IMG/VR virus record: IMGVR_UViG_3300032229_000533
Coordinates: 118,340 to 182,339 of that record
Length of the DNA: 64,000 nt
Source of the DNA: a virus
Reading direction: 5' to 3' (one strand)
Below, piece after piece: positions 8,882 to 35,657 of this stretch. How positions within the stretch are numbered: position 1 is the stretch's first letter; each line of letters opens with the position of its first letter. The position numbers were made by a program, and so were the translations under genes. A model generated the notes under the pieces. It did no database searches, was not told the origin of the DNA, and saw only the letters and a program-made list of their open reading frames with translations.

Positions 8882-9030
8882 GTTTCTTTTGTTTTTTTAA
8901 TTTTATTTTATATCTTTGTAATATCAAATTTTATTCCGATGATAAATATACGTCATTTTTTCAGATAAGACAAATATTATCTGACATTATGACATACTAA
9001 AAAAATATTTATGACAATTTGTCAAATTAT

Positions 9031-9081: not shown

Positions 9082-11097
9082 ATGAACGACTTAATGGACG
9101 ATGACGACAAAATGATGAGTAAAAAATCAAAATCATCAACAGATACAAACACACCTGTATTAGACAACTTCAGTAGAGACTTAAATAGCTTAGCTGAGGA
9201 AGGTAAACTTGACCCTGTTATTGGTCGTGACCGAGAGATTTTGAGAATCGCTCAGATTTTATCTCGTAGAAAGAAAAACAACCCAATTATCCTTGGTGAA
9301 CCTGGTTGTGGTAAAACCGCTCTTGTTGAAGGTTTGGCGATTAAAATTGTAAACGGGGAATGTCCTCGTAACTTGGTCGACAAACGTATTGTTAACCTTG
9401 ACCTGACTTCAGTTGTTGCTGGTACAAAGTACCGTGGACAATTTGAAGAACGTATGAAAGTTATCATTGAAGAACTTCAGGCAAACCCTAACATCATCGT
9501 ATTCATTGATGAGATTCACACATTGGTTGGTTCAGGGAATTCTTCAGGTTCAATGGATGGTTCAAACATATTCAAACCAGCACTTTCTCGTGGTGAACTT
9601 CAATGTATTGGAGCAACTACATTGGATGAATTCCGTAAGAACATTGAGAAAGATGGGGCATTGGAACGTAGATTCCAAAAAGTAATTGTTGAACCATCCT
9701 CAGTTGAAGAAACAATCCAAATCCTTAAGAATGTTCGTAACAAATACGAAAACTTTCACAAGGTAAACTATAGTGATGAAGTTATTGAAACTTGTGTAAA
9801 GTTGGCTGACCGTTACATTACTGACCGTGAATTCCCTGACAAAGCGTTTGACATCTTGGATGAGGTTGGAGCAAGAATGCAAACTGACCTAAAAGTTCCT
9901 GACATCATTGAAGAACTTAAAAAGAAAGCGGCGGACATCAAACAACAAAAAATTGATGTGGTTAAAAAACAAAACTATGAGCAGGCGGCTGAACTTCGTG
10001 ATAAAGAGAAGAAATTGTTGACCAAACTTGACCAAGAAAAAATTAAGTTTGAAGAACAATTGGCTAAAGAGAAACAAACCATCCTATTGGAACACGTATA
10101 CGATGTTGTTTCAAACATGACCAAAATCCCTGTTAGCAAAATGAGTGTTGATGACACCAAAGCTTTATTGGATTTGGACAAGAACTTGATTGACAAAGTT
10201 ATCGGTCAAAACAACGCGGTTGTTAAGATTGCAAAATCAATCAAAAGAAACCGTTTGGGTATTAAAGACCCTAACCGTCCAATTGGTTCATTTGTATTCT
10301 TGGGTTCAACAGGTGTTGGTAAAACATACTTGGCAAAACAATTGGCTAAGGAGATGTTTGGTTCTGAAGATTCACTTATCCGTGTGGATATGTCTGAATA
10401 CCAAGAAAAACATACCGTATCTAAATTGGTTGGGGCTCCTCCAGGTTATGTTGGATACGAAGAAGGTGGATTGTTAACTGAGAAAGTTAAAAACAAACCA
10501 TATTCAGTTATCTTGTTTGACGAGGTGGAAAAGGCACACAAAGATGTATTCACCATCTTACTTCAAATCTTGGATGATGGTCACGTTACGGATAGTTTGG
10601 GTCGTAAAATCAACTTCAAAAACACGTTGATTATCTTGACATCAAACTTGGGTGTTAAAAAACTACAGGACTTTGGAACAGGTATTGGTTTCTCTTCTAA
10701 CTCTTATAGTAACGAAGAGGCTAAGAAACAAATGTTGATGAAGGAAATGAAGAATTTCTTCTCCCCTGAGTTCTTAAACCGTATTGATGATACGATTGTA
10801 TTTAATTCATTGTCTCAAGAAGATATTAAAAAAATTACAGATATTGAATTGAAGAAATTGGTGTCTCGTCTTGTTGATATGAAATACAACATTACTTATG
10901 ATGAATCATTGGTTGAGTATTTGTCTAAGATTGGATTTGACGAATTGTACGGAGCTCGTCCATTGAAAAGAGCTATTCAAGATAAGGTTGAAGACCTATT
11001 GTCTGAAGAAGTTCTAACAGGTAAGATGATTGAGGGTAAAACCTATCTTATCAAAGTGGTGGATGAAAATGTGGTGGTCCAAAAGAAAGGACGATAA
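9082..11097 (+). CDS. ClpC/ClpA-type AAA+ unfoldase without N-domain
   Basis: A 671-residue two-ring Clp ATPase that unfolds proteins, normally for degradation by ClpP. Ring 1 has Walker A at 72-80 (GEPGCGKTA) and Walker B at 139-144 (IVFIDE). Ring 2 has Walker A at 408-415 (GSTGVGKT) and Walker B at 477-482 (VILFDE). Between them (about 286-314) is a UVR-type motif 'QQKIDVVKKQNYEQAAELRD', typical of ClpC. A GIGF tetrapeptide at 534-537 sits where ClpA/ClpC carry their ClpP-docking IGL/VGF loop. The usual N-terminal Clp_N repeats (about 150 residues) are missing; the first 25 residues are acidic and disordered-looking. A phage ClpP is encoded at 35686 and a UVR protein divergently at 8447. 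A short leader follows a Bacteroidota-like promoter. Confidence 0.92.
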   Translation: MNDLMDDDDKMMSKKSKSSTDTNTPVLDNFSRDLNSLAEEGKLDPVIGRDREILRIAQILSRRKKNNPIILGEPGCGKTALVEGLAIKIVNGECPRNLVDKRIVNLDLTSVVAGTKYRGQFEERMKVIIEELQANPNIIVFIDEIHTLVGSGNSSGSMDGSNIFKPALSRGELQCIGATTLDEFRKNIEKDGALERRFQKVIVEPSSVEETIQILKNVRNKYENFHKVNYSDEVIETCVKLADRYITDREFPDKAFDILDEVGARMQTDLKVPDIIEELKKKAADIKQQKIDVVKKQNYEQAAELRDKEKKLLTKLDQEKIKFEEQLAKEKQTILLEHVYDVVSNMTKIPVSKMSVDDTKALLDLDKNLIDKVIGQNNAVVKIAKSIKRNRLGIKDPNRPIGSFVFLGSTGVGKTYLAKQLAKEMFGSEDSLIRVDMSEYQEKHTVSKLVGAPPGYVGYEEGGLLTEKVKNKPYSVILFDEVEKAHKDVFTILLQILDDGHVTDSLGRKINFKNTLIILTSNLGVKKLQDFGTGIGFSSNSYSNEEAKKQMLMKEMKNFFSPEFLNRIDDTIVFNSLSQEDIKKITDIELKKLVSRLVDMKYNITYDESLVEYLSKIGFDELYGARPLKRAIQDKVEDLLSEEVLTGKMIEGKTYLIKVVDENVVVQKKGR

Positions 11098-14580: not shown

Positions 14581-14611
14581 CGTTGATTTTTATTATAAAT
14601 ACCAATTTTGT

Positions 14612-14641
14612 TTGGAATTTCCATATTTATTCTTACCTTTG
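14612..14641 (+). promoter_or_regulatory. Promoter of the phage tmRNA
   Basis: TTG (14612-14614), exactly 19 bases, then TACCTTTG (14634-14641), a full match to the flavobacterial TTG-N19-TAnnTTTG promoter. It implies a primary transcript starting about 100 bases before the mature tmRNA 5' end, so 5' processing is needed. Confidence 0.8.
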
Positions 14642-14747
14642 TATAAGAAATCACGGGTGACTCCCTTAATAGTTAAGGCTGACCTTAAGCATCTGACGTA
14701 TGTCTATACAGGGGGTGAAAGTGATTTTTTATCGTTCTTAAAATTAT

Positions 14748-15129
14748 GGGGGTGCATGGTATTGATTGGCATTGTTGGGGATAAGTGGCACGTCGGAGCT
14801 GAATTAACTTCGTTATCAACTGGTTTAAACAATCAAATGGCAATACTTTTGCTAAGCTTGCGGCTTTAGGTCTTACTAAAGAAGAAGCTGTTGTTACTAT
14901 CTAAGATAGGGAACAACAACGGGGTCGGTGAACATTAACCTAGCAACAGAAGTTCTTACAAAGGTGGAAAAATGACTAAACCCAAAATTGAGTCGTCCAT
15001 TGGTTATTAGTTTACGATGGTGAAGAACAAACTGAATATTTTGGAACATTAGAAAATGTTATCCTAAACGTGTAGTCATTTATTGTCAAAATGAGCAAGA
15101 CGAGGGTTCGAATCCCTCCACCTCCACCA
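14748..15129 (+). ncRNA. ssrA: Transfer-messenger RNA (tmRNA) with an atypical long tag
   Basis: One-piece tmRNA of 382 bases. The acceptor stem GGGGGTG (14748-14754) pairs fully with CACCTCC (15119-15125), followed by A and an encoded CCA. The T arm GAGGG-TTCGAAT-CCCTC matches the tmRNA consensus, and the 5' region (GTGGCACGTCGGAGC, CTTCGTTATCAACTGG) matches conserved tmRNA helices. The most likely tag frame resumes at GGC 14839 and ends at TAA 14902: it starts GNTFAKLAA, ends KEEAVVTI and is 21 residues long. It lacks the common ALAA end seen by ClpXP. A second GGGGGTG at 14711 lies in the leader. The RNA rescues stalled ribosomes and tags their products. Confidence 0.9.
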
Positions 15130-15133
15130 AATT

Positions 15134-15161
15134 AAGGGTTCCAAAACGGAACCCTTTTTTT
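15134..15161 (+). terminator. Terminator of the tmRNA gene
   Basis: AGGGTTCC, a short loop, GGAACCCT and seven T immediately after the encoded CCA. Confidence 0.85.
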
Positions 15162-15188
15162 ATTTATATTCTTTTATATATTTTAAAA

Positions 15189-21319: not shown

Positions 21320-21408
21320 TGGCGGAAGGTGAGGGGCTCGAACCCTCGCGACTTTTACATCCTATCAGTTTAGCAAACTGACCCCTTCACCAACTTGGGT
21401 AACCTTCC
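21320..21408 (-). tRNA. tRNA-Ser (GCT)
   Basis: Acceptor GGAAGGT/ACCTTCC with discriminator G and encoded CCA; anticodon arm TCAGT-TTGCTAA-ACTGA; long variable arm as expected for serine. Reads AGC/AGU. First (3'-most) member of the minus-strand array. Confidence 0.92.
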
Positions 21409-21409
21409 A

Positions 21410-21730
21410 TTATTTTATTAACTCCAATAGAACATAAGTTAATTTATATCCTGTAAATGCCCCAAGAGCAGATGGGATTGGAAACACAATCATCTTACCT
21501 AAATCGGTAACATACTTTGGTCTGTTAACAATCTTACCCATAAAAAAATAATAGGTGATATATCCTAACAATACCGCCAAATCTGTCTTGGTTGCAATGA
21601 ATACAACTAATGTTGCACCTATAAATCCAAAGACAAAATTATCTCTAACTCCTTCCCATATTTCGTATGGGGTGGCATCTTTATACTCTTTAACAATTTT
21701 TTGAAATGATTTTCTATTTCTCTTAAACAT
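21410..21730 (-). CDS. Membrane protein of unknown function
   Basis: A 106-residue protein with a basic N-terminus (MFKRNRKSFQKIVKEYK), hydrophobic segments at about 32-46 (FVFGFIGATLVVFIA), 51-66 and 80-103 (FPIPSALGAFTGYKLTY), suggesting two or three membrane helices. It is wedged between two tRNAs; its stop codon lies one base before the 5' end of tRNA-Ser(GCT). No family recognised. Confidence 0.6.
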   Translation of the reverse strand: MFKRNRKSFQKIVKEYKDATPYEIWEGVRDNFVFGFIGATLVVFIATKTDLAVLLGYITYYFFMGKIVNRPKYVTDLGKMIVFPIPSALGAFTGYKLTYVLLELIK

Positions 21731-21745
21731 ACTCTAATTTTTTTG

Positions 21746-21819
21746 TCGGAATGGGTGGAATTGAACCACCGACCATTTGCGTATAAGGCAACCGCTTCTC
21801 ACCACTGAGCTACATTCCG
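21746..21819 (-). tRNA. tRNA-Ile, anticodon probably TAT
   Basis: Acceptor CGGAATG/CATTCCG is perfect and the T arm GGTGG-TTCAATT-CCACC is canonical. The anticodon arm reads TTGC-CTTATAC-GCAA with a G-A mismatch at 27-43, giving UAU (AUA codon). UAU is rare because bacteria usually use lysidine-modified CAU for AUA. No CCA encoded. Confidence 0.65.
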
Positions 21820-21835
21820 TATCATACAAATATAA

Positions 21836-21872
21836 AAAAAATCCCTCTGAATTTCAAACTCAGAGGGATAAA
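21836..21872 (-). terminator. Terminator after the ferritin-like-protein gene
   Basis: ATCCCTCTGA, loop, TCAGAGGGAT with a run of A on the left, giving a T tract on the minus strand. Confidence 0.75.
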
Positions 21873-21894
21873 TTATTTTTAATAAAAAATTATT

Positions 21895-22365
21895 TTATTT
21901 TAAGAATCTCAATTTATAAATAGTACTGTAAATTAATTCTTGAACAGTATCAATTTGATTTTGAATAAAAGACTCTTTAACTGACTTTCTATTTTTTTCA
22001 ATATTTTCATCTAACCCTTTAAAGTAAGTTATTAGTTGCTCTGTTGATTTATAATCAACCATTTTAATTGTTTTATATCCTGTTAACAAATCGTTTTTAC
22101 CTTGGTAGCTCTCAACAATTCCGTCAATTAGTTCAACAATCCCATCGTAATACGTACCTAATGCAGTATGTTCAGCAAATGATGATTGTGATTTTGTTTG
22201 CCAATGAAATACATGTGCCTGACTTCTTGAATGAAGTAATGTTGAAATCATATCAACAATATCCCCATCCTCAGCAATATCATCAGCAGTTTCTTTTTTT
22301 TCGGCTTCACTCAACTGTATTACTTTATACAATTGTTCTTTTGTCAATGTTACTCTTTTTTCCAT
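21895..22365 (-). CDS. Dps/ferritin-like helical phage protein
   Basis: 156 residues from the ATG at 22365; a longer frame would run through the neighbouring tRNA and is rejected. The N-terminus carries 'VIQLSEAEKKE' (LSE before A), a capsid-targeting-like motif. The core (about 40-90) reads 'LLHSRSQAHVFHWQTKS', 'SSFAEHTALGTYYDGIVELIDGIVE', the His/Asp/Glu helix pattern of Dps-like four-helix proteins. Whether it binds iron is unknown. TATTTATA lies three bases before the ATG. Confidence 0.65.
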   Translation of the reverse strand: MEKRVTLTKEQLYKVIQLSEAEKKETADDIAEDGDIVDMISTLLHSRSQAHVFHWQTKSQSSFAEHTALGTYYDGIVELIDGIVESYQGKNDLLTGYKTIKMVDYKSTEQLITYFKGLDENIEKNRKSVKESFIQNQIDTVQELIYSTIYKLRFLK

Positions 22366-22368
22366 ACA

Positions 22369-22376
22369 TATAAATA
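22369..22376 (-). promoter_or_regulatory. TATTTATA element, putative phage late promoter
   Basis: Three bases before the ATG at 22365; it decides the start over the longer frame. Confidence 0.45.
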
Positions 22377-22403
22377 CCTTGCCATTTGGAAAAAAATTAT
22401 TTG

Positions 22404-22475
22404 TACCGATGGGAAGAATTGAACTTCCGACAACTTGGATATGAATCAAGTGCTCTACCACTGAACTACATCGGC
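22404..22475 (-). tRNA. tRNA-Met (CAT), first copy
   Basis: Acceptor GCCGATG/CATCGGT with a G-U first pair; anticodon arm CTTGA-TTCATAT-CCAAG; T arm GGAAG-TTCAATT-CTTCC. It lacks the three G-C pairs of initiator tRNA, so it is an elongator or a lysidine-type Ile. Confidence 0.85.
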
Positions 22476-22480
22476 ATTAG

Positions 22481-22555
22481 TGGTTTCATAGGGACTCGAA
22501 CCCCAACGTCTTTTCGTCCGTAGCGAAATGTTTTATCCAATTAAACTATAAAACC
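22481..22555 (-). tRNA. tRNA-Arg (ACG)
   Basis: Acceptor GGTTTTA/TGAAACC, anticodon arm TTTCG-CTACGGA-CGAAA. Reads CGN after A34-to-inosine editing. Its first 15 bases contain the stop codon of the adjacent HNH gene. Confidence 0.9.
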
Positions 22556-23218
22556 ATTGTTGTATTTTTGATAATATTTAACCCATTTTCTAATTGCATT
22601 ATCACTAACATTATATTTTTTACCTGTCCCAACGTAACCAAACTTTTCAATCTCATCTATCAAATTGTTGTAGTCAGGTCTTTCTGTTTTTCGTCTATCT
22701 TTATAATATTCTTCTTTCTCCTTAGTAAAAATTTTTCTCATATCTTCTTTATATGTTTTACTTTTTGTGTTTTTACCACAGTGAGTTGGTAGAGTTGCAT
22801 TACAGTTTGGACAAACTATTCTTAAATTCTCAATCCTATTATCATTCCAAACCCCATTGATATGGTCAATAATTAACGACATCTTTTTTCCCATCCATTC
22901 CTCACCTTGACCACATAATTCGCAATTTCTTTTTTTGATACCTGTTTCATATAACCTTTCCTTCAATCGGCTCCTATTATATGAGGACCCTTCAGTTAGA
23001 ATATCATCTAATTGAATGGTTTTTTCTTTGGTTGATTGATTTAATTTTTCAATTCTAACTTCGTCAGGATTAAAGTGGTCTACATTTATATTATATTTTT
23101 TCAAATATTTTTTTAAGGTATTAAAATTACCTCCTGCAGCTCTTAACCCAAGTTTATGTAAACACTCTGTTTGTGTTTTAGAATTTTTAACAATTTCATC
23201 TAATTTAATTTTATCCAT
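22541..23218 (-). CDS. HNH homing-type endonuclease
   Basis: A 225-residue protein. The HNH core is at about 100-150: 'NCELCGQGEEWMGKKMSLI', 'IDHINGVWNDNRIENLRIVC' and 'PNCNATLPTHCG', with two CxxC zinc knuckles and H-N-H catalytic residues. The C-terminus (FGYVGTGKKYNVSDNAIRKW) is a small DNA-binding helix-turn-helix typical of such nucleases. The stop codon lies inside the 5' end of tRNA-Arg(ACG). An ATATTTATAA element is found about 25 bases upstream. Confidence 0.9.
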   Translation of the reverse strand: MDKIKLDEIVKNSKTQTECLHKLGLRAAGGNFNTLKKYLKKYNINVDHFNPDEVRIEKLNQSTKEKTIQLDDILTEGSSYNRSRLKERLYETGIKKRNCELCGQGEEWMGKKMSLIIDHINGVWNDNRIENLRIVCPNCNATLPTHCGKNTKSKTYKEDMRKIFTKEKEEYYKDRRKTERPDYNNLIDEIEKFGYVGTGKKYNVSDNAIRKWVKYYQKYNNGFIV

Positions 23219-23281
23219 AATTCGAACCTTTAATTATAAATATGTCGAACCATGTAAAAATTTATAGTAGAAATAAAAAAA

Positions 23282-23354
23282 GTTGTCCCTGGAGGATTCG
23301 AACCTCCACAATTTCCGTCAAAGGGAAATGTCCTGCCATTAGACGAAAGGACAA
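23282..23354 (-). tRNA. tRNA-Gln (TTG)
   Basis: Acceptor TTGTCCT/GGGACAA, anticodon arm TTTCC-CTTTGAC-GGAAA, T arm GGAGG-TTCGAAT-CCTCC. Confidence 0.92.
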
Positions 23355-23360
23355 TTTGTG

Positions 23361-23442
23361 TGGGAGTAGTAGGACTCGAACCTACGAACTCAAAAGAGGT
23401 TTGATTTACAGTCAAATGCAGTTGCCGCTGTGCCATACTCCC
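23361..23442 (-). tRNA. tRNA-Tyr (GTA)
   Basis: Acceptor GGGAGTA/TACTCCC, anticodon arm TTTGA-CTGTAAA-TCAAA, long variable arm as in bacterial tyrosine tRNAs. Confidence 0.93.
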
Positions 23443-23447
23443 ATTAG

Positions 23448-23519
23448 CACGGATGGAGAATTACGATATCCCGACACCTAGTTTTGGAGACTAGTGCTCT
23501 GCCCCTGAGCTACATCCGT
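23448..23519 (-). tRNA. tRNA-Trp (CCA)
   Basis: Acceptor ACGGATG/CATCCGT, discriminator G, anticodon arm CTAGT-CTCCAAA-ACTAG. The T loop reads ATCGTAA instead of the usual TTCGAAT/TTCAAAT, with a weak closing pair. Confidence 0.88.
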
Positions 23520-23530
23520 ATTTTTTTTTT

Positions 23531-23603
23531 GAGGTCGGTATAGGATTTGAACCTATGTAAGCGGTTTTGCAGACCGACGCCTAACCACTCGGCCAACCGA
23601 CCT
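23531..23603 (-). tRNA. tRNA-Cys (GCA)
   Basis: Acceptor AGGTCGG/CCGACCT, anticodon arm CGGT-CTGCAAA-ACCG. The discriminator is C rather than the usual U for cysteine. Confidence 0.88.
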
Positions 23604-23608
23604 TTTAG

Positions 23609-23683
23609 TGTCCCCGATGGGACTCGAACCCATGACTCCTTCATTAAAAGTGAAGTGCTCTAAACCAACTGAGCTACGAAGAC
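23609..23683 (-). tRNA. tRNA-Lys (TTT)
   Basis: Acceptor GTCTTCG/CGGGGAC with two G-U pairs, anticodon arm CTTCA-CTTTTAA-TGAAG, T arm ATGGG-TTCGAGT-CCCAT. Confidence 0.92.
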
Positions 23684-23689
23684 ATTAAG

Positions 23690-23761
23690 TTGTCACGATA
23701 GGATTTGAACCTATGACCGCTTCCGTATCAGAGAAGAACTCTACCACTGAGTTACGTGACA
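23690..23761 (-). tRNA. tRNA-Ile (GAT)
   Basis: Acceptor TGTCACG/CGTGACA, anticodon arm CTTCT-CTGATAC-GGAAG, T arm ATAGG-TTCAAAT-CCTAT. Confidence 0.9.
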
Positions 23762-23768
23762 ATAAAAT

Positions 23769-24101
23769 TTATTGTGGTAAAAAAAACATGTTAACAATTA
23801 CATCCCAAAACCAATTTCTTGGAATTTCTTCACATTCAATTCTACCATTTTGAAAATACGTTGTTTTATAATACATTGTCGGTGACTTTTGAATTAAAAC
23901 CCTGTGTTTTGGAGTAAACAACATTGTTTCGGTTAATGATTCATATTCTTTGTCCCATTTTGCAAACACCTCATGCTCCGAACCTTCAATTATTATTTTT
24001 CCTATCTTACCTGTCTTCCATTCAACAATTTCAGTTTTTAATTCAAATCTCTGTGAATGTGATAATATTGGTAATAAAAGGAACAGAACAATTATTTTCA
24101 T
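23769..24101 (-). CDS. Small exported protein
   Basis: A 110-residue protein with a signal peptide (MKIIVLFLLLPILSHSQ) and probable cleavage after S15 or Q17. The mature part is soluble and charged (FELKTEIVEWKTGKIGKI). No cysteine follows the signal, so it is periplasmic or secreted, not a lipoprotein. It sits between tRNA-Ile and tRNA-Ser, its stop eight bases from the tRNA-Ile 5' end. Resembles small exported proteins of flavobacteria; function unknown. Confidence 0.65.
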   Translation of the reverse strand: MKIIVLFLLLPILSHSQRFELKTEIVEWKTGKIGKIIIEGSEHEVFAKWDKEYESLTETMLFTPKHRVLIQKSPTMYYKTTYFQNGRIECEEIPRNWFWDVIVNMFFLPQ

Positions 24102-24131
24102 TTTTTTATTTTTTTAATTTAAATAATATTG

Positions 24132-24214
24132 CGGAGGATGAGGGAATCGAACCCCCAAGGCTTTTACACCCAGCTGATTTCAAGTCAGTGTCCTCGTCCA
24201 TTCGGGCACCCTCC
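24132..24214 (-). tRNA. tRNA-Ser (TGA)
   Basis: Acceptor GGAGGGT/ATCCTCC, discriminator G, anticodon arm CTGA-CTTGAAA-TCAG, long variable arm. Reads UCN. Confidence 0.92.
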
Positions 24215-24250
24215 GTATAACCGACCTAGCTCGGTAAACACATCGGATGG

Positions 24251-24326
24251 GGTGACTAACGGGAGTCGAACCCGCGACCTCTTGAACCACAATCAAGCGC
24301 TCTAAACCAACTGAGCTATAGCCAAC
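24251..24326 (-). tRNA. tRNA-His (GTG)
   Basis: Anticodon arm CTTGA-TTGTGGT-TCAAG and T arm GCGGG-TTCGACT-CCCGT. An extra 5' G faces C73 as histidine requires; the first acceptor pair is a T-C mismatch. Confidence 0.85.
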
Positions 24327-24474
24327 ATGTAAAAGGTAGGGTTGACTTTATCAGGAATCCAGTCTCACGACTTCACACACCATTAGAGAGTTGGGTATTA
24401 CTACCTATCCTTAGTGTGTACCCTTGCGTCACGTCTCTCCACGATTATCAACCTACGCATTTTACTACCATTTG
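24327..24474. other. Structured spacer in the tRNA array
   Basis: No open frame or complete tRNA. On the minus strand TACACAC and GTGTGTG can close a long stem, and GGTAGTAATACC forms a hairpin within it. May be a processing signal, a decayed tRNA or a small RNA. Confidence 0.35.
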
Positions 24475-24574
24475 TAGTCAGGACAGGATTCGAACCTGTA
24501 ATGGTATTATACATTCCCATTTCCCCTATGATTGGGAGTGCCAATGGTTTATAAGCCAATTCCACCACCTGACT
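24475..24574 (-). tRNA. Atypical 100-base tRNA-like element, anticodon uncertain
   Basis: The acceptor AGTCAGG/CCTGACT and T arm ACAGG-TTCGAAT-CCTGT are perfect, and AATGG/CCATT can form a long variable arm. The interior is about 10-14 bases too long. A D arm GTGG/CCAT would have a 14-base loop, and the 17 bases before the variable arm read TCCC-AATCATAG-GGGA, which does not give a normal U33-anticodon loop. The sequence would allow TCA or CAT. The 5' end overlaps the stop codon of the adjacent HEXXH gene. Confidence 0.5.
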
Positions 24575-24965
24575 ATTTTATTAACCCCCACACCTCTTTA
24601 CAATACTTCTCATTCTCAACCGCCTCAATCTCCATCGGGTGATTCTCATACCCATACTTTTTCAACATCTTATAGTACTTGCTCGCCACAGGTTGTAATG
24701 TGTGAGTGTATTCGTGTAATGTTGTTGTAATCAAATCACTAACATTTTTACAATTATTTTTAAACACTATAATTGTATGAGTGTCGGGACGATATTCACC
24801 ATACTTCAAAAAGTCATCGTTTTTACTCTGAGATTTCACAATCGCTTTACAAAAACCTTTTCTTTTATTCACCCCAAACATAACCTCACAAATACCAATT
24901 GTTTTATCAACAATTTGTCTAATCTCTTTGTGTGTTAAAGTCTTCAAATTAGTGTTTATTCTCAT
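24573..24965 (-). CDS. HEXXH zincin-like protein
   Basis: 130 residues from MRINTNLKTLTHKEI (ATG at 24965); a start 45 bases further upstream is less likely because it adds an unrelated tail. The motif 'TTLHEYTHTLQ' is HEXXH, followed about 30 residues later by 'HPMEIEAVENEKYC', whose Glu/His could complete the zinc site, as in SprT- or ImmA-like small peptidases. Located within the tRNA array; the final TAG shares two bases with the next tRNA-like element. Substrate unknown. Confidence 0.7.
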   Translation of the reverse strand: MRINTNLKTLTHKEIRQIVDKTIGICEVMFGVNKRKGFCKAIVKSQSKNDDFLKYGEYRPDTHTIIVFKNNCKNVSDLITTTLHEYTHTLQPVASKYYKMLKKYGYENHPMEIEAVENEKYCKEVWGLIK

Positions 24966-25029
24966 ATTATATCCCCGTTTTGTTACACAAAGATACGGAA
25001 TATTCCCCAAATCACCAAAAAAAGTTTTG

Positions 25030-25162
25030 TAGTCAAGGTCGGACTCGAACCGAATACCGTTCTTGACGGATTAGACAACCTTATAACGTCTCGCGTCCAA
25101 ATGGTTATGGACCGTGGTGTTTTTCGGACTTGGGTACCTTCCCGCATTACGCCCACTTGACT
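25030..25162 (-). tRNA. tRNA-like element with a long insertion, class II-like
   Basis: Acceptor AGTCAAG/CTTGACT is perfect over seven pairs, and the T arm reads TCGG-TTCGAGT-CCGA. CCGT/ACGG forms a variable arm and AGACG...TTGTCT an anticodon-like arm whose loop contains TTATAAG. The element is 133 bases; about 40-50 bases are extra between the D region and the anticodon-like arm, including a GTCC/GGAC hairpin. It may be a tRNA with an intervening sequence, a decayed gene or a tRNA-shaped RNA with another role. Confidence 0.45.
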
Positions 25163-25367
25163 AACCCCAGTTGTTCGTTCATCTCGGAGATGGGTGCTCC
25201 TGCACGTGTTTCCACCCACGGGATGGTAGCTTTTCTCCTCGGTATTGTAGGACCGAGTGCCTGTTGAGCAACCATTGGCTACTAATGGTTTTGTTTACCC
25301 CCTTCACCAGCTTAATGGACTGGCTGCCATATCGGAAGTGGGGGTTTCCTGTTATTTCAGGACTTCG
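25163..25367. other. Hairpin-rich spacer in the tRNA array
   Basis: Contains at least four clear inverted repeats: CATCTC/GAGATG, CTCGGT/ACCGAG, AACCATT/AATGGTT and ACCCCCTTC/GAAGTGGGGGT. Less AT-rich than the surroundings. No gene seen; short open frames here have no coding character. Confidence 0.45.
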
Positions 25368-25440
25368 TGGTAAGGGTTGGAATCGAACCAACGGCACAGG
25401 GATTTTCAGTCCCTTGCTCTACCTACTGAGCTACCATACC
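25368..25440 (-). tRNA. tRNA-Phe (GAA)
   Basis: Acceptor GGTATGG/CCTTACC, anticodon arm AGGGA-CTGAAAA-TCCCT, T arm GTTGG-TTCGATT-CCAAC. Confidence 0.93.
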
Positions 25441-25758
25441 AAATTTGAGGTTGAGACCCTCTGTGTTGTAGTGTACGATTATGTTTTCCATAATTCAAGT
25501 AATGTCACTCATCTTTATATCTCCTTTCTCAAGGGAACAACACAATATTGTTGATAATGATGGAGTACCCGTCTCGCTCCAATCTTAAGTGCTTCTTCAG
25601 TTTTACGAGGTCCTCGGCACTGTCCTTTTCAGGGGGTGATGAATTCCAATTCCATTCTGAAGAGTCGACCTTCGTTGAATGGGGAAAACCATTATCAATT
25701 CCTTTCGTCGGGGGAGTAGGTCACCAACTTCTTTAACCCCTACTCCCCCACATTATTG
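25441..25758. other. Structured 318-base spacer in the tRNA array
   Basis: No gene recognised. GTGTTGT (about 25463) can pair with ACAACAC (about 25530), and an 11-base perfect stem GGGGGAGTAGG/CCTACTCCCCC closes an 18-base loop at about 25711-25750. Possible processing signal or small RNA. Confidence 0.45.
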
Positions 25759-25830
25759 TAGTCGGTACGGGAATCGAACCCGTCTTTTATCCGTGAAAGG
25801 GATATGTCCTAACCGATAGACTAACCGACC
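25759..25830 (-). tRNA. tRNA-Glu (TTC)
   Basis: Acceptor GGTCGGT/ACCGACT, anticodon arm TATCC-CTTTCAC-GGATA, T arm GACGGG-type with TTCGATT loop. Confidence 0.92.
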
Positions 25831-25837
25831 AATTGTG

Positions 25838-25910
25838 TAGTCCCTGTAGGACTCGAACCTACGACTGCTTGCATGTAAGGCAAGAGCTCTACCAACTGAG
25901 CTAAAGGACT
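25838..25910 (-). tRNA. tRNA-Val (TAC)
   Basis: Acceptor AGTCCTT/AGGGACT, anticodon arm CTTGC-CTTACAT-GCAAG, T arm GTAGG-TTCGAGT-CCTAC. Confidence 0.93.
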
Positions 25911-25995
25911 ATTTTTTTCCAACATGTCAAAGACCTATTTTGTTTTTCAACGATACAAAGGTAATACATTTTTTTTAAAGTTTTGGACTAAAAAC

Positions 25996-26034
25996 AAAAA
26001 ACCCCAAACTTTTTTTCAAAGTTCGGGGTTTTAA
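25996..26034. terminator. Terminator-like hairpin inside the tRNA array
   Basis: ACCCCAAACTTT and AAAGTTCGGGGT form a long stem flanked by A and T runs. A related hairpin lies at 29316-29350, so it is a repeated module, each time downstream of a candidate mini-gene. Confidence 0.6.
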
Positions 26035-26083
26035 TATCTTGTTATTTCTAACTTGTTATTAACGTACTACCTTATATCCGAAC

Positions 26084-26167
26084 TCAATTTTGCATATGAC
26101 GATACCAGCTACAGAATACCTCTTGTTGCTTAATAACCGACGACATATGTTTAATTGATGTTCTCAT
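26084..26167 (-). CDS. Candidate 27-residue small ORF
   Basis: ATG at 26167, product MRTSIKHMSSVIKQQEVFC followed by SWYRHMQN. It lies between a promoter/operator-like site (26188-26207) and a terminator hairpin, the arrangement of a small transcription unit. It may instead be a non-coding RNA. The rest of the 25911-26230 gap holds nothing else I can support. Confidence 0.3.
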   Translation of the reverse strand: MRTSIKHMSSVIKQQEVFCSWYRHMQN

Positions 26168-26187
26168 TGTTTTATAATTATTACAAT

Positions 26188-26207
26188 AATACGAAAAGTT
26201 TCGTATT
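26188..26207. promoter_or_regulatory. Perfect inverted repeat, candidate operator
   Basis: AATACGAAA and TTTCGTATT separated by AG, 9-base arms. On the minus strand it lies between TTGACA and a TATTATTG element, the place where a repressor would block a promoter. Confidence 0.5.
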
Positions 26208-26230
26208 TGTCAAATATTTTTTTGTTTTAG

Positions 26231-26303
26231 TACCCCAAGAGGGATTCGAACCCTCAAAAACTTGTTCCTAAGACAAGCGTGTATACCGTTCCACCATCGG
26301 GGT
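26231..26303 (-). tRNA. tRNA-Leu (TAG) with a short variable loop
   Basis: Acceptor ACCCCGA/TTGGGGT, anticodon arm CTTGT-CTTAGGA-ACAAG, T arm GAGGG-TTCGAAT-CCCTC. The variable region is only TTTTT, whereas bacterial leucine tRNAs have a long variable arm. The anticodon reads CUA/CUN. Confidence 0.85.
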
Positions 26304-26403
26304 GTTCATCACATCGTACAGGCATTCTACTCCCAGCTCCGAGGAATTGTATCTAACTTAGCCCTTCTCCACCGCTGTATGGGTACCTGAGGATATGATT
26401 TTG

Positions 26404-26477
26404 TATCCCCGATTGGATTCGAACCAATGACCCACAGCTTAGAAGGCTGTTGCTCTATCCAACTGAGCTACGGAGAC
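26404..26477 (-). tRNA. tRNA-Arg (TCT)
   Basis: Acceptor GTCTCCG/CGGGGAT, anticodon arm ACAGC-CTTCTAA-GCTGT. Reads AGA/AGG. Confidence 0.92.
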
Positions 26478-26486
26478 ATATTTTTG

Positions 26487-26574
26487 TGGTACCGAGAGCG
26501 GGACTCGAACCCGCACGAACATTACTGTCCAAGGGATTTTAAGTCCCTCGTGTCTACCTTTTCACCACCTCGGC
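26487..26574 (-). tRNA. tRNA-Leu (TAA)
   Basis: Acceptor GCCGAGG/TCTCGGT, encoded CCA, anticodon arm AGGGA-CTTAAAA-TCCCT, long variable arm. Reads UUA/UUG. Confidence 0.93.
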
Positions 26575-26622
26575 GTCTTGTTTTGTTGTACAAATATAGG
26601 AAATAAAATTGGATACTACAAC

Positions 26623-27342
26623 TTATAGAGAAAAATTTTCTTCAAATAATGTATTTGAATCATTTTCTTCTGTGTTGTAAGTGTGTTCTAATTCAACGGT
26701 TGAATTGTTGAAATTAAAGATGAATCGTCCGTCAGAACCTTCGTTGATTTCCCAACCACCGAAATGACTTTCAAGTTGACTATAACACCAATCTTCAATT
26801 GAGGCAGGAACTGCATCACTTGTTTCATCAAATGAACTTTCAATATAACCAGAATCTCCACCACCATTGTAACTTAGAGTTAGGATACCATCACTTGGAA
26901 CTTCAACATCTTGCATGTCTTCTTCCATCCACTTATCAAATCTTGATTTATCCTCGTCAGAATCATACTCAACTGTATTACCATCACCTCTATCGTAATA
27001 TGAATAATTGTGAGTTACGGTAAGTTCTTTTCTCTTACAATCAATTTCAATATCAATGTTTTGATAACTCATTGTATCCATATCAGGAGATTCATATGCA
27101 CCCTCAGAAATAACATGATTCATTACTTTTTTAAGAATTGGTGTCAATCCGTCAGGTAACTCTGCTCTATAGTTATTTTCAAAATGTTGTATACGTCTCC
27201 AATCAATGTCATCATGTGACAAGTCATATTGGTCTGAATCCAATTCAATACTAATTACTCCTTCTGTCATACCCAATGACGCAAGATAGTTACAAGTTCT
27301 GTTTAAGTATTTTTTTTCGTCTGGGGTTAAAATTTCTGCCAT
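26623..27342 (-). CDS. Acidic protein of unknown function
   Basis: 239 residues from MAEILTPDEKKYLNR (ATG at 27342); an upstream in-frame start would place the TATTTATT element inside the gene. Very acidic throughout, with Tyr/Asp-rich stretches (NYSYYDRGDGNTVEYDSDED) and beta-like C-terminal half ending in 'LEHTYNTEENDSN'. No family recognised. It ends 48 bases before the 5' end of tRNA-Leu(TAA) and lies 11 bases downstream of the DUF6915-like gene, so the two form a small operon within the array. Confidence 0.7.
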   Translation of the reverse strand: MAEILTPDEKKYLNRTCNYLASLGMTEGVISIELDSDQYDLSHDDIDWRRIQHFENNYRAELPDGLTPILKKVMNHVISEGAYESPDMDTMSYQNIDIEIDCKRKELTVTHNYSYYDRGDGNTVEYDSDEDKSRFDKWMEEDMQDVEVPSDGILTLSYNGGGDSGYIESSFDETSDAVPASIEDWCYSQLESHFGGWEINEGSDGRFIFNFNNSTVELEHTYNTEENDSNTLFEENFSL

Positions 27343-27345
27343 ATT

Positions 27346-27353
27346 AATAAATA
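27346..27353 (-). promoter_or_regulatory. TATTTATT element, putative phage late promoter
   Basis: Three bases before the ATG at 27342; it overlaps the end region of the 27354 gene. Confidence 0.4.
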
Positions 27354-27701
27354 TCAATCTTCTATTTTAAGTGTCCTCAACATCCATTGAGGTCGTTTAT
27401 TTTCTAAAATATTGTTCATCCATTCTTTTGCTGATGGTAAATAATTGTTACAATCTTCTTTTACGTGTTGTTCTCCAACATAACGAGTGTAAACTATTTT
27501 TCCATCACTATTAATGAATTCTGGTCCAAACCTTTTTTCCATTTCAAAAATCCCTTCGCTATGATGTCTGAACATTCTATGTAAAGAATCTCCCATCCAA
27601 CCTTTGGTTTCATCTAACCATTCGTGTAAATGAATATAATCTTCAGGTTTACCACCAAACTTTTTTGCGGAACTTTTTGCATGTATATTAGGATGTGCCA
27701 T
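27354..27701 (-). CDS. DUF6915-like protein
   Basis: A 115-residue protein whose layout fits a widespread bacterial and phage family: 'HAKSSAKKFGGKPEDYIHLHEWLDET' (in part), 'DSLHRMFRHHSEGIFEMEKRFG', 'NSDGKIVYTRYVGEQHVKEDC'. Conserved His pairs suggest metal binding, but no activity is established for the family. Located between tRNA-Ala(TGC) and the acidic 26623 gene. Confidence 0.7.
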   Translation of the reverse strand: MAHPNIHAKSSAKKFGGKPEDYIHLHEWLDETKGWMGDSLHRMFRHHSEGIFEMEKRFGPEFINSDGKIVYTRYVGEQHVKEDCNNYLPSAKEWMNNILENKRPQWMLRTLKIED

Positions 27702-27719
27702 ATTTTATTTATTTATTTG

Positions 27720-27793
27720 TGGAGAAGGAGGGACTCGAACCCGCGACTTCTTGAATGCAAATCAAGCGCTCTAGCCAACTGAGCTACATCCCC
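27720..27793 (-). tRNA. tRNA-Ala (TGC)
   Basis: Acceptor GGGGATG/CTTCTCC with one T-T mismatch, anticodon arm CTTGA-TTTGCAT-TCAAG, T arm GCGGG-TTCGAGT-CCCTC with one mismatch. Confidence 0.85.
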
Positions 27794-27801
27794 AAACACT
27801 T

Positions 27802-27918
27802 TTAGTATAAACCATCTGTAATTGATTTATAGATAAGTACAACCATTCCGATTGCCCACGCACTTACCGCTAATATAATTACGGTGTCTTTCAGTGTAAT
27901 TTTCTTTAACAACTTCAT
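27802..27918 (-). CDS. Single-pass membrane mini-protein
   Basis: A 38-residue protein, MKLLKKITLKDTVII then a hydrophobic helix (LAVSAWAIGMVVLIY) and a short tail KSITDGLY. The basic N-terminus, clean helix and placement exactly between two tRNAs support a real small gene. Function unknown. Confidence 0.55.
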   Translation of the reverse strand: MKLLKKITLKDTVIILAVSAWAIGMVVLIYKSITDGLY

Positions 27919-27991
27919 AATGTTTTTTTAATGGTTTTCAAAATAGGTTACAAAGATAAATAAAAAGGTTTAATTACCAAAAATATTTTTG

Positions 27992-28065
27992 AGCCTCCTG
28001 TCGGATTCGAACCAACGACATTCGCATTACAAGTGCGACGCTCTGGCCAACTGAGCTAAGGAGGC
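27992..28065 (-). tRNA. tRNA-Thr (TGT)
   Basis: Acceptor GCCTCCT/AGGAGGC, anticodon arm TCGCA-CTTGTAA-TGCGA, T arm GTTGG-TTCGAAT-CCGAC. Confidence 0.93.
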
Positions 28066-28157
28066 GTTTTCGGTAAAGAATAGTCACGACCACCTCTGTT
28101 TCTCTTTACCTGTTATTCAATCGTGGCACAATGTGGTACGACCCTAACTGAATCTTG

Positions 28158-28231
28158 CGGTTCGGACGGGACTCGAACCCGCGACCTCCTGCGTGACAGG
28201 CAGGCATTCTAACCAGCTGAACTACCGAACC
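28158..28231 (-). tRNA. tRNA-Asp (GTC)
   Basis: Acceptor GGTTCGG/CCGAACC, discriminator G, anticodon arm CCTGC-CTGTCAC-GCAGG. Confidence 0.93.
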
Positions 28232-28445
28232 AAAATTCCCCACCTGAGATTCCAGTGAGTGGATTTTTCTTCTGTTTTCCTATTGAAAACACGAGACGGT
28301 CTTACCCGCACATAAACGTCAAACATACTCGGTGGGTTTGTTACGCCCAGGCTCCGACGAACCCCCTCTCTAAAGTCGTGGAAGGCTACAACTATACCAT
28401 TATTAAGAAACGGTACCAAATCTATTGGGTATCTCTTACCCCTTG
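28232..28445. other. Structured spacer in the tRNA array
   Basis: 214 bases without a convincing gene. ACCC/GGGT and GGTACC/GGGTATC pairings can be drawn. Short open frames on both strands lack a recognisable product. Confidence 0.35.
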
Positions 28446-28518
28446 AGCGGTAGACAGGTCTCGAACCTGCGACTTCGTACTTGGAAGGAACGCGCTCTAC
28501 CAACTGAGCTACTACCGC
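28446..28518 (-). tRNA. tRNA-Gly (TCC)
   Basis: Acceptor GCGGTAG/CTACCGC, anticodon arm CGTTC-CTTCCAA-GTACG with one T-T mismatch. Its first seven bases contain the stop codon (TAG) of the adjacent HNH gene. Confidence 0.9.
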
Positions 28519-29048
28519 ATTATTAAATTGTCATGTATTTCAAAATGACAATTTGAACAAACTAACATACACTTATCAACTTCATTTTTTAAGTTTTCAA
28601 AACTAAGACTTTTTCCTGATATCTGAAAATCTTTTTCTTTTGGGGTTTTATGATGAAATTGTAATGCTCTATCACATTTATTATACCCACATATTTCACA
28701 TTTTCCACCCTTATATTCTATCAATTCACGTTTTTTTCTTTTTCTCCACGATATTACATTTTCTGAATTTGTTTTAGGAATTTTATCTCTTGTAATAACG
28801 TATTTTTTAACTGTTTCAAATGCATGTCCCTTAAGTTTTGCAACTTTTTTCAAAGAACCAATTTCATCATACAAAACTTGTAACTCTTTCTTTTCCTCGT
28901 CACTCAAAGACACATCCTCACCTCCAAGTTTATGTAAGTTACAATGATAAGATACAGTTGACATAGCACAATTCAATTCGTTACAAATTTCTTTATACGT
29001 TTTACCTGATTTTCTTAATTCTATAATTTTTTCGGAGTATCTACCCAT
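28512..29048 (-). CDS. HTH-HNH homing-type endonuclease
   Basis: A 178-residue protein: an N-terminal resolvase-like helix-turn-helix (about 1-32, 'SEKIIELRKSGKTYKEICNE') and a C-terminal HNH core 'CEICGYNKCDRALQFHHKTP' to 'CMLVCSNCHFEIH', with paired CxxC knuckles. Not closely similar to the 22541 nuclease, yet it too ends inside the 5' end of a tRNA, here Gly(TCC). ATATTTATTAA lies in the leader. Confidence 0.88.
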   Translation of the reverse strand: MGRYSEKIIELRKSGKTYKEICNELNCAMSTVSYHCNLHKLGGEDVSLSDEEKKELQVLYDEIGSLKKVAKLKGHAFETVKKYVITRDKIPKTNSENVISWRKRKKRELIEYKGGKCEICGYNKCDRALQFHHKTPKEKDFQISGKSLSFENLKNEVDKCMLVCSNCHFEIHDNLIMR

Positions 29049-29093
29049 AATTAATATTTTAATTAATAAATATTAGACACTTCGTAAAAAATG

Positions 29094-29177
29094 CTGGTAC
29101 GGTAGGATTCGAACCTACGATGTGGTCACCCAGTCAGGTTAACAGCCTGATGCTCTCGGCCTCTAAGCGACGTACCA
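29094..29177 (-). tRNA. tRNA-Asn (GTT) with a long variable arm
   Basis: Acceptor TGGTACG/CGTACCA, discriminator G, anticodon arm TCAGG-CTGTTAA-CCTGA. The variable region has 15 bases and can form TGG-GTGA-CCA, whereas asparagine tRNAs normally have a five-base loop. Confidence 0.88.
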
Positions 29178-29183
29178 ATTATG

Positions 29184-29256
29184 TAGAGTAGACAGGGGTC
29201 GAACCTGCACGCACTTGCTCCCAAAGCAAGGGACCTACCAATTGGTCAACTACTCT
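29184..29256 (-). tRNA. tRNA-Pro (TGG)
   Basis: Acceptor AGAGTAG/CTACTCT, anticodon arm CTTGC-TTTGGGA-GCAAG. Confidence 0.93.
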
Positions 29257-29315
29257 ATTTTATTTCCCACATGTCAAAGAACACTACAAATATACAAAAG
29301 AAAACCTTTAAAAAC

Positions 29316-29352
29316 AAAAAACCCCGAACTTTTTATGTTCAGGGTTTTTAAA
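29316..29352. terminator. Terminator-like hairpin at the head of the tRNA array
   Basis: ACCCCGAAC, six bases, GTTCAGGGT flanked by A and T runs; related to the hairpin at 25996-26034. Confidence 0.6.
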
Positions 29353-29373
29353 TTTTGGCTTCTTAGTATTCCA

Positions 29374-29463
29374 TTATTTAAAGTCTGAACATGAGCATAG
29401 AGTGCCTAACCCGTCATTTGTCGGTGTTAAATTCGCTCTATCAAGTGTGTTCAAATTTTTCAT
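29374..29463 (-). CDS. Candidate 29-residue small ORF
   Basis: ATG at 29463, product MKNLNTLDRANLTPTNDG then LGTLCSCSDFK. A TATATTTATAG element lies about 12 bases upstream and a terminator hairpin follows. Could equally be a small RNA; the sequence has no homology I recognise. Confidence 0.3.
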   Translation of the reverse strand: MKNLNTLDRANLTPTNDGLGTLCSCSDFK

Positions 29464-29505
29464 AATGTTTCTATAAATATAGTCAAAAATTTAAAAAATC
29501 AACCC

Positions 29506-29766
29506 CTACAGGTATTTTTTGAATAAATCTTCCAAAGTTTTTTCATCTTCTTGTGAAAGACGGTAATATTTTTCTTTCAATAGGTCCATTTTCTCAATGA
29601 AAACTCCCTCTAAAACTCCAATGTTTTTTTCAGTATCTTCTACTGCGGATGGACTAATATGTCCTCCCTCAATTAGAGCTTCAATAAGTTCTTTAATGTC
29701 TCGTTTGTTACATGCTGATACAAACTCATCGGCATCAACGTCTACGTATGTGTCAAATTCTGGCAT
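29506..29766 (-). CDS. Small acidic protein of unknown function
   Basis: 86 residues from MPEFDTYVDVDADEF (ATG at 29766). A longer frame upstream is rejected because it runs over the promoter TATATTTG at 29796-29803. The N-terminal 'DVDADEFVSACNKRDIKELIE' pattern (in part) with a C-terminal helix recurs in small phage proteins, but the function is unknown. Confidence 0.65.
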   Translation of the reverse strand: MPEFDTYVDVDADEFVSACNKRDIKELIEALIEGGHISPSAVEDTEKNIGVLEGVFIEKMDLLKEKYYRLSQEDEKTLEDLFKKYL

Positions 29767-29795
29767 GATATGTTTTTTTTTTAAATTGTACAATG

Positions 29796-29803
29796 CAAAT
29801 ATA
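29796..29803 (-). promoter_or_regulatory. TATATTTG promoter element
   Basis: Exact match, 29 bases upstream of the ATG at 29766. Confidence 0.6.
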
Positions 29804-29851
29804 AGGACTATTTTGGAACATTCCAACTATTTATTAAGATAAATTATTGAA

Positions 29852-31018
29852 ATGAAGTTAAACAGAAAAAACATATTAAAAGAGGGTTTATTTACAAATT
29901 TACTTAAAACTTCAGTTAAAACATTACCATCAACTTTCAAATATCTTGATGATATTACAAGATTAATGACCCCTGAAGTCAAAGCAATCGCCAACACAAC
30001 TACACCAGCAATTCTGAATGTAAGTGAAGGAACTGCAAAAAGATTTTATAAAGATTTTTTTCTATCAACAAACCAATTGTCAAGAAATGCTACTAAAGTT
30101 TCAATGGAAGGGTTAACTCAAAAAGGTATTCAAAATTTAATAGGATTGAAAAAAAATATATCTGACTTATTAAACTTGACTAATGTGTCTCCTGGTGCAA
30201 AAATAGATGCAAAAAACCTAATAAATGTTGTACATAGTACAAAGAATGGGGTTGATAATTTAGTTAATGAGTTGAAATTAGTTAAACCAAATAGTGCGGA
30301 TTTAACAGTTGCAAAAGAAATGCAGACACAAATTGATGATGTTATTTCTAAAAATAATACAATTTTTAAAAATGCGACCATGGGGACATCTACATCAACT
30401 AACCCAAAACCAGTTGTTAAACCAAAAGTCGAGCCAAAATCACTAACTAAACCAAAAGTTGAACCTAAACCAATAGTTAAACCAAAAGTTGAGCCAAAAC
30501 CAACGGTTAAAACAAAAGTTGAACCAAAAGTTAAATCATCATCGCCTAAAGTTAAAATACCTGTGGGAAACTTCAACGAAGTCCAAATTATAAGAGGTTC
30601 GTATAACCTTCCAACACAAAAATCTGCACGTTTTGTTGACCAACTGCTTGAAAAATCTTTCTATGAGGGGTTTGGAAAACGTCACGATATGTGGTCAGAT
30701 GAAATTATAAATCAATTAACCCCTGAAACAAAAAGTTATTTGTTACAATTGAAAAAAAATCTTGAAAAAGAAGGTTTGTTGTATACAAATGGATTTACAC
30801 AAGAATTTAAAAGGTTACCAAAAACGGCAGATGAAGAAATAAAATTACTTTCTGGAAATCATTGGGGTGGACTTGGAAGAAGAATGGGTGCACAAAATTC
30901 AATCAAATCTTTACCTATCCCAAGCAATAGTGTAATTCAAAATTTATTAGACAAGACAATGCAATCATCCAAGAAAGAAGAGATTTTGCAACTTTATAAA
31001 ACTTTGTTTAATAAGTAA
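29852..31018 (+). CDS. Virion-protein candidate with KPKVEPK repeats
   Basis: A 388-residue protein. The leader MKLNRKNILKEGLF has LKE before G. Residues about 15-175 are helical. Residues 190-235 are a low-complexity linker of at least five KPKVEPK-type units. The C-terminal 150 residues are soluble, with 'HWGGLGRRMGAQNS' near 355. No family recognised. TATTTATT lies 16 bases upstream. It overlaps the end of a convergent small gene by 11 bases. Confidence 0.75.
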   Translation: MKLNRKNILKEGLFTNLLKTSVKTLPSTFKYLDDITRLMTPEVKAIANTTTPAILNVSEGTAKRFYKDFFLSTNQLSRNATKVSMEGLTQKGIQNLIGLKKNISDLLNLTNVSPGAKIDAKNLINVVHSTKNGVDNLVNELKLVKPNSADLTVAKEMQTQIDDVISKNNTIFKNATMGTSTSTNPKPVVKPKVEPKSLTKPKVEPKPIVKPKVEPKPTVKTKVEPKVKSSSPKVKIPVGNFNEVQIIRGSYNLPTQKSARFVDQLLEKSFYEGFGKRHDMWSDEIINQLTPETKSYLLQLKKNLEKEGLLYTNGFTQEFKRLPKTADEEIKLLSGNHWGGLGRRMGAQNSIKSLPIPSNSVIQNLLDKTMQSSKKEEILQLYKTLFNK

Positions 31019-31175
31019 ATTTAATTGTATCCCCTTCTGAATAACGAATACCTGAGAAAATAACACCTGTTTGTGTTGTGTCACCCAAAGACTTAACTTC
31101 GTACTTGTATTGTCCGTTGTCTACTGTTTGACAACACAATACCAAAAATAGTTTAATTCCAATTATTGTTTTCAT
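31008..31175 (-). CDS. Small exported protein
   Basis: 55 residues: MKTIIGIKLFLVLCCQTVDNG, a short signal/lipoprotein-like start, then a beta-rich mature part (YKYEVKSLGDTTQTGVIFSG). Its ATG overlaps the TGA of the upstream 99-residue gene (ATGA), which supports translational coupling. Lipid attachment at C14 or C15 is possible. Confidence 0.6.
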   Translation of the reverse strand: MKTIIGIKLFLVLCCQTVDNGQYKYEVKSLGDTTQTGVIFSGIRYSEGDTIKFTY

Positions 31176-31471: not shown

Positions 31472-31492
31472 AATTTGTTTTTATTAAGGATA

Positions 31493-31500
31493 CAAAGATA
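31493..31500 (-). promoter_or_regulatory. TATCTTTG promoter element
   Basis: Exact TAnnTTTG match upstream of the 31172-31471 gene. Confidence 0.6.
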
Positions 31501-31510
31501 ATATTTTTTT

Positions 31511-31897: not shown

Positions 31898-31899
31898 AA

Positions 31900-32205: not shown

Positions 32206-32220
32206 ATTTTAAAATTTTTG

Positions 32221-35633: not shown

Positions 35634-35657
35634 TTTTGCACTTTAATTCTTTTTACT

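Follow-up and report, generated by a model that had tools for sequence, protein, structure and literature searches.

ClpXP reads a free C-terminal LAA, and degrons of the (A)LAA type are common in tmRNA tags but not required of a tmRNA; the tag of mycobacteriophage Bxz1 is also long and is not of the ALAA type. The closest described systems fall into several groups. The one-piece tmRNAs of bacteria (RF00023, for example in Bacteroidota) share with the locus described here their architecture, the G3-U70 pair, the T arm, the CCA end, the G-N/G-E context of the resume codon and a stop codon inside helix 5. They differ in having tags of 9-11 residues that end in [LM]AA, against 21-22 residues without [LM]AA in the phage, where the tag also has a conserved K-[LM] and G-L core and the gene a linked ClpC. 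Phage-borne ssrA genes are known from mycobacteriophages Bxz1, Cali and others and from Bacillus phage G (PMC4131195), and the Methylophilales phage Melnitz has a two-piece tmRNA with a glutamine riboswitch (PMC9004378); in this group we found no similar tag sequence, and no dedicated linked unfoldase has been reported. Al-Shayeb et al. described huge phages that, likewise large, carry a tmRNA and SmpB (PMC7162821), and the text of that paper makes no mention of Clp and, in the passages found, shows no tag sequence. ClpP or ClpA has also been reported in phages (PMC7824862).

The locus lies in a 64,000-nucleotide stretch (the window) of a 182-kb virus contig. The virus is large, uncultured and infects bacteria, and its terminase has no close relative among deposited sequences; from the type of its promoters, its hosts are probably Bacteroidota. 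Neither the long-tag tmRNA family to which the locus belongs nor the link of that family to a Clp unfoldase is described in the literature that we searched, which covered few subscription journals and included PMC4131195, PMC9004378, PMC7162821 and PMC7824862.

A tmRNA gene with a 21-residue tag

The covariance search that the original prediction had named as a check gave a match to RF00023 (Rfam tmRNA) at 14748-15129 on the plus strand, with 90.5 bits (E 7e-34; cut-off 47 bits) over model positions 1-374, the full model; ARAGORN listed only tRNAs in the window and missed the tmRNA. As predicted, an acceptor stem, a T arm and an encoded CCA are present: the stem GGGGGUG/CACCUCC (14748-14754 with 15119-15125) forms 7/7 pairs and includes G3-U70, the element recognized by AlaRS, the T stem forms 5/5 pairs, and ACCA is encoded at 15126-15129. 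The predicted flavobacterial promoter with its 19-base spacer, a perfect Bacteroidetes-type TTTG-N19-TACCTTTG at 14611-14641 (+), precedes the transcript, and the predicted terminator is an intrinsic one at 15134-15163 (+), made of a 9-bp stem (15134-15156) and a T tail. Perfect promoter sites of this kind occur 8 times in the window, with 1.04 expected from shuffles, and among the relatives the tmRNA promoter is whole in 42/66 and its -7 box is kept in 59/66. The extent of the feature needed correction: a separate structured leader occupies 14646-14729, so the mature tmRNA is 14748-15129 and not 14612-15161. Across relatives, 31 of the 40 consensus pairs show two-sided changes. The acceptor stems covary among long-tag tmRNAs, and nearly all members keep G3-U70, despite stems as unlike as GGGGAAG/CTTCTCC, GGGCTCG/CGAGTCC and GGGGCAG/CTGCTCC. 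The tmRNA itself is under selection.

The tag frame runs from GGC 14839 through 21 codons to TAA 14902-14904 (14839-14904, plus strand) and reads GNTFAKLAALGLTKEEAVVTI, as had been proposed; the Rfam alignment fixes it, as does its conservation among relatives, and GNVLNKMALLGLVKQDELVEVA is a further tag sequence. The last tag codons pair with sequence 3′ of them in helix 5 (14889-14918, plus strand), a fold whose pairing is kept through base changes in relatives and whose 3-base loop is the stop codon UAA. Searching with a nucleotide pattern of the tag's beginning retrieved 44 other viral contigs, every one with a 21-residue tag of the same kind, and the tmRNA model exceeded its cut-off in 44 of the 45 tag-matched records, counting the window record. 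The comparison across related phages, another proposed check, now comprises 86 distinct tmRNA genes of the same long-tag type with 60 distinct tags, of which 49 have 21 residues and 11 have 22; the tags follow the pattern G-[NDEK]-x-Φ-x-K-[LM]-x-x-Φ-G-L-...-V-x-V-A. Every one of the 49 distinct 21-residue tags has G11 and L12, and G1, K6, [LM]7, V18 and A21 are dominant.

The absence of an ALAA end is borne out family-wide, as none of the 60 distinct tags ends in [LM]AA or carries an (A)LAA-type degron; the endings are VA in 33, AA in 11 and GA in 6. The further claim that the usual degron has been replaced by the window phage's own ending stands only in part. VVTI is confined to the small clade of the window phage, and in most relatives the last residues are V-x-V-A or V-A/G-A, which indicates that the tag's C terminus has been remodelled and not simply lost. 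When close relatives are compared pairwise, the tag frame gives a pN/pS of 0.33 and the two alternative frames give 0.83 and 1.34; synonymous changes are common at the codons of G11, L12 and L10. From this bias towards synonymous change, the tag peptide is under protein-level selection. Tags and bodies do not travel together: the window phage and L096 have unfoldases 95% identical, tmRNA bodies 86% identical and tags only 50% identical, and L095 and L096 share an identical tag on tmRNA bodies that are 56% identical. Judged by these identities, tags and tmRNA bodies are exchanged independently of each other.

The long-tag tmRNAs apparently form an undescribed phage tmRNA family. A tblastn search with the tag found no match among deposited phages, and another variant gave one chance-level match. 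Across 84,980 cellular species, each represented by a single genome, a scan with the tag pattern yielded no tmRNA with a tag of the GNTFAK form; six pattern matches in cellular genomes, mostly in ordinary reading frames and none with a tmRNA-type tag, were rejected, and two such matches among viral contigs were also set aside. Tag-like C termini were looked for on other phage proteins and none was found. Two long-tag tmRNA genes are hidden from the tmRNA model by group I introns in the T loop (GGTT | intron | CGATTCC), at 12871-13087 of L124 and 15130-15346 of L132. Separately, the 484-kb huge phage LR756508.1 has an unrelated tmRNA (L208, 1500-2000) with an apparent tag of ~35 residues ending ...GSERKPAAV in a putative frame, and the tmRNA of the crAss-like phage cr273_1 (L421, 544-913) looks permuted (two-piece) and has a likely 15-residue tag, GNINVVDYTGLQEAA.

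Among the likely hosts, 114 of 118 Bacteroidota genomes have a tmRNA, and all 49 main tags that were read out are 9-11 residues long and finish with [LM]AA, for example GENNYALAA, ANDYSYAMAA and GNTQYAMAA. The phage tag starts with nine residues, GNTFAKMAA, that are similar to the last of these, a likeness that suggests that the phage tag could derive from an ancestral, host-like tag lengthened beyond its stop. One Bacteroidota genome, G206, has a second tmRNA beside its main ssrA (L401, 4001-4412; 49.3 bits), perhaps a decayed or mobile copy; it encodes the normal tag GENNYALAA and was rejected as a relative of the phage long-tag genes.

The leader RNA

Upstream of the tmRNA, the transcript carries a structured leader (model R1; 14646-14729, plus strand) of 84 bases and four helices. 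In the leader alignment 98.6% of cells are paired, 10 pairs have changed on both sides, and none of 500 shuffled versions was as good. The second GGGGGTG at 14711 is indeed present (14711-14717), but its proposed role as a folding switch that competes for the 3′ acceptor strand is not upheld. In the precursor fold the leader copy pairs with ACTCCCT at 14660, within helix P2 (14660-14666 with 14710-14716), at a probability of 0.93-0.99, and with the acceptor strand at only 0.001, while the 5′ acceptor strand of the mature tmRNA is paired at 0.97-0.99. In most relatives P2 combines GCTCCCT with AGGGGGC, a compensated change, and the copy itself reads GGGGGCG; on these pairing probabilities and the covariation of the leader's own helix, the switch is rejected.

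Rfam assigns the leader to no plausible bacterial or phage family, its one overlap being a chance-level eukaryotic snoRNA match (E 3.7). A structured RNA likewise accompanies the tmRNA of Melnitz, but the leader described here belongs to no known riboswitch family. An exact scan with the leader core found 76 viral contigs. Most copies sit just 3′ of a TAnnTTTG box and ~20 bases 5′ of a tmRNA of the long-tag family; others precede tRNA-Glu, tRNA-Gln or Met-Gly-Glu-Asp tRNA arrays, and at L304 the leader is followed directly by a terminator. It is single-copy in the window phage and elsewhere plainly present or absent. We read the leader as a new RNA motif that heads untranslated stable-RNA transcripts of phages. 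It is perhaps an antitermination or processing element of the HK022 put kind. The motif was also seen at L302, L308, L319, L326, L310, L341, L358 and L304. At L310 and L341 a further conserved, seemingly structured stretch lies ~75-160 bases 3′ of the leader core, and L312 and L348 likewise have conserved, apparently structured stretches between leader and tRNA genes.

Linked Clp and SmpB genes

Upstream of the tmRNA, at 9082-11097 (+), the window encodes a ClpC-like double-ring AAA+ unfoldase of 671 aa with its own promoter (8888-8918). Of the features that mark a ClpC it has two AAA+ rings, pore loops (KYRG and GYVG) and a ClpP-binding loop (IGF), and a recognisable [ILV]G[FL] motif is found in 72 of the 83 unfoldase homologues compared. 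Its best solved relative is Staphylococcus aureus ClpC. In alignment with ClpC of S. aureus and Bacillus subtilis (PDB 6em8, 3j3s), a partner of ClpP, query residues 10-656 are covered, and both rings, the middle domain, the pore loops and the ClpP loop correspond. The difference lies at the N terminus: residue 10 aligns to ClpC residue 146, so the phage form is without the N-domain (the first ~145 residues), where adaptors dock, and no Clp_N domain was matched in it.

The unfoldase gene lies upstream of the tmRNA and on the same strand in nearly every relative with enough sequence. Of 43 tag-bearing contigs, 41 have it, and the other two stop short of the expected place. A second survey started from the unfoldase gene and took in 80 viral loci chosen without reference to the tmRNA; in 62 of these the tag occurs once, 2.1-5.7 kb downstream and on the strand of the unfoldase. 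Where the tag is missing, the sequence is in most cases cut off within ~3 kb of the unfoldase; L146, and perhaps L143, has room after the unfoldase and no tag was found there. L119 is an extra tag-positive locus, with the tag DATFAKMATLGLTREAVVVGA. The huge phage LR745206, whose unfoldase and ClpP are 58% and 64% identical to those of the window phage, has no tmRNA over the model cut-off, and in a negative control set, 80 viral loci that encode relatives of the LR745206 unfoldase, the tag appeared only in 3, which are this lineage's own. Tight co-evolution of tag and ClpC was considered and rejected: their identities correlate loosely (Spearman 0.31), and tag identity is only 50% between phages whose ClpC proteins are 95-96% identical. 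Either, then, ClpC reads only the fixed core that the tags share, or it is not the reader.

The window also encodes a ClpP peptidase of 226 aa (35686-36366, plus strand; own promoter 35635-35665), which matches the fold family PF00574 over its full length (E 1.4e-57) and has the Ser-His-Asp triad by alignment to solved ClpPs (PDB 8r04). Perfect promoters of the same type thus precede ClpC (8888), the tmRNA (14611) and ClpP (35635). ClpP was found in 20/43 and 10/50 contigs of the two sets, mostly long ones, and in 13 of the 15 relatives of 100 kb or more, tallied over both sets; the two without it are G079 and G087 (both >100 kb), though all records are classed as linear and may be fragments. 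The link of the tag to ClpC, and usually to ClpP too, is conserved. Just 5′ of the window's ClpP lie an HNH-like protein with partial IscB/Cas9 similarity (33122-33610) and a NodU-like carbamoyltransferase fragment (33969-35633), and the minus strand at 21320-32294 carries 24 tRNA genes by ARAGORN, to which Rfam adds two weaker ones.

No SmpB was found in the 182 kb of the window phage's record, so host SmpB must serve. Three relatives have a full SmpB with its C-terminal tail; in two, 0.5-0.9 kb separates the gene from the tmRNA; the third relative, a single 309-kb contig, has ClpC, ClpP, SmpB and tmRNA together. Phage-type SmpB was seen at L368, L369 and L370 (G076, G092 and G079), in a clade with tags GN[IV]LNKMALVGLVRQDELVNVA, and in G076 and G079 it adjoins the tmRNA on the opposite strand. 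The SmpB of G039 was not relied on, as its neighbour resembles a cellular TonB-receptor gene and the contig may be chimeric.

Reading of the tag

The original prediction had offered that a phage-encoded Clp system might read the tag, or that the tag might protect. ClpC and ClpP are indeed encoded and linked to the tag across the family, and the tag may serve degradation or protection. We consider it somewhat probable that trans-translation is functional and that the tag escapes host ClpXP and goes to phage ClpC-ClpP. During infection, host alanyl-tRNA synthetase would charge the phage tmRNA, and SmpB, from the host in the window phage and phage-encoded in a few relatives, would deliver it. The tmRNA would then rescue stalled ribosomes and add its 21-residue tag, whose length would bury or remove the C-terminal [LM]AA needed by host ClpXP. 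Another signal would be offered in its place, made of K6-[LM]7, hydrophobic10-G11-L12 and a C-terminal V-x-V-A or, here, VVTI; the N-domain-less phage ClpC would read it and feed phage ClpP, so that the phage would control the removal of truncated chains made in the cell it infects.

An ordinary tmRNA, whose products host ClpXP, ClpAP or Lon degrade through a small hydrophobic end while the phage Clp serves assembly or takeover, say, would fit the -VA, -AA or -GA endings of most relatives, which are near known ssrA ends, the loose correlation of tag and ClpC, and the suggestion that jumbo-phage Clp acts on host proteins or in assembly (PMC7824862). A plain C-terminal degron, however, has no need of the invariant or near-invariant internal K-[LM] and G-L core, practically all contigs of sufficient length have the unfoldase linked to the tmRNA, and the window phage's own clade ends in TI; we regard this explanation as unlikely. 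In E. coli, changing the LAA of the tag to DD keeps rescue and blocks degradation, a precedent for a protective or neutral tag that brings the phage ribosome rescue and spares its tagged proteins from host ClpXP, and [LM]AA is found in 0/60 phage tags as opposed to 49/49 readable Bacteroidota tags. Yet a neutral tag should drift, and residues 1, 6, 7, 11, 12, 18 and 21 are conserved; with a linked unfoldase and ClpP pointing to proteolysis, we think protection rather improbable.

The conservation might instead reflect RNA structure, namely helix 5 and folding, since codons 17-21 pair in that helix and the conservation of V-V could be partly structural. Codons 1-16 lie outside helix 5, pN/pS is low in the tag frame only, and the codons of G11, L12 and L10 often differ synonymously, all of which strongly disfavours this account and makes it scarcely credible. 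The phage tmRNA could also be a decoy that mainly titrates host SmpB or AlaRS and so stops host trans-translation, much as has been suggested for the TLD-only tmRNA of mycobacteriophage DS6A (PMC4131195); this is very improbable for an RNA that is full-length, whose tag frame is intact and under selection and whose pseudoknot region is conserved, in a family of which some members bring their own SmpB.

Delivery of tagged chains to phage ClpC-ClpP is part of a wider picture that we hold only tentatively and with some doubt: a whole phage-owned pathway apart from ClpXP, made of a tmRNA with a private long degron, an N-domain-less ClpC, ClpP and sometimes SmpB, with tag cassettes exchanged around a fixed core and a new leader heading stable-RNA operons. 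In two decades of reports, the odd tags of phage tmRNAs have been little explained. Here the tag, its putative reader ClpC and often ClpP co-occur in many phages, and because the tag comes in 60 natural variants that share a fixed core, both reader and degron are directly testable. With its own tmRNA tag beside its own unfoldase and, usually, a matching protease, such a phage may run a private line of tagging and disposal. If this is right, it would be a case of a virus altering the address label that host protein quality control uses, and these phages would be a possible source of tag-protease pairs without cross-reaction to host proteases.
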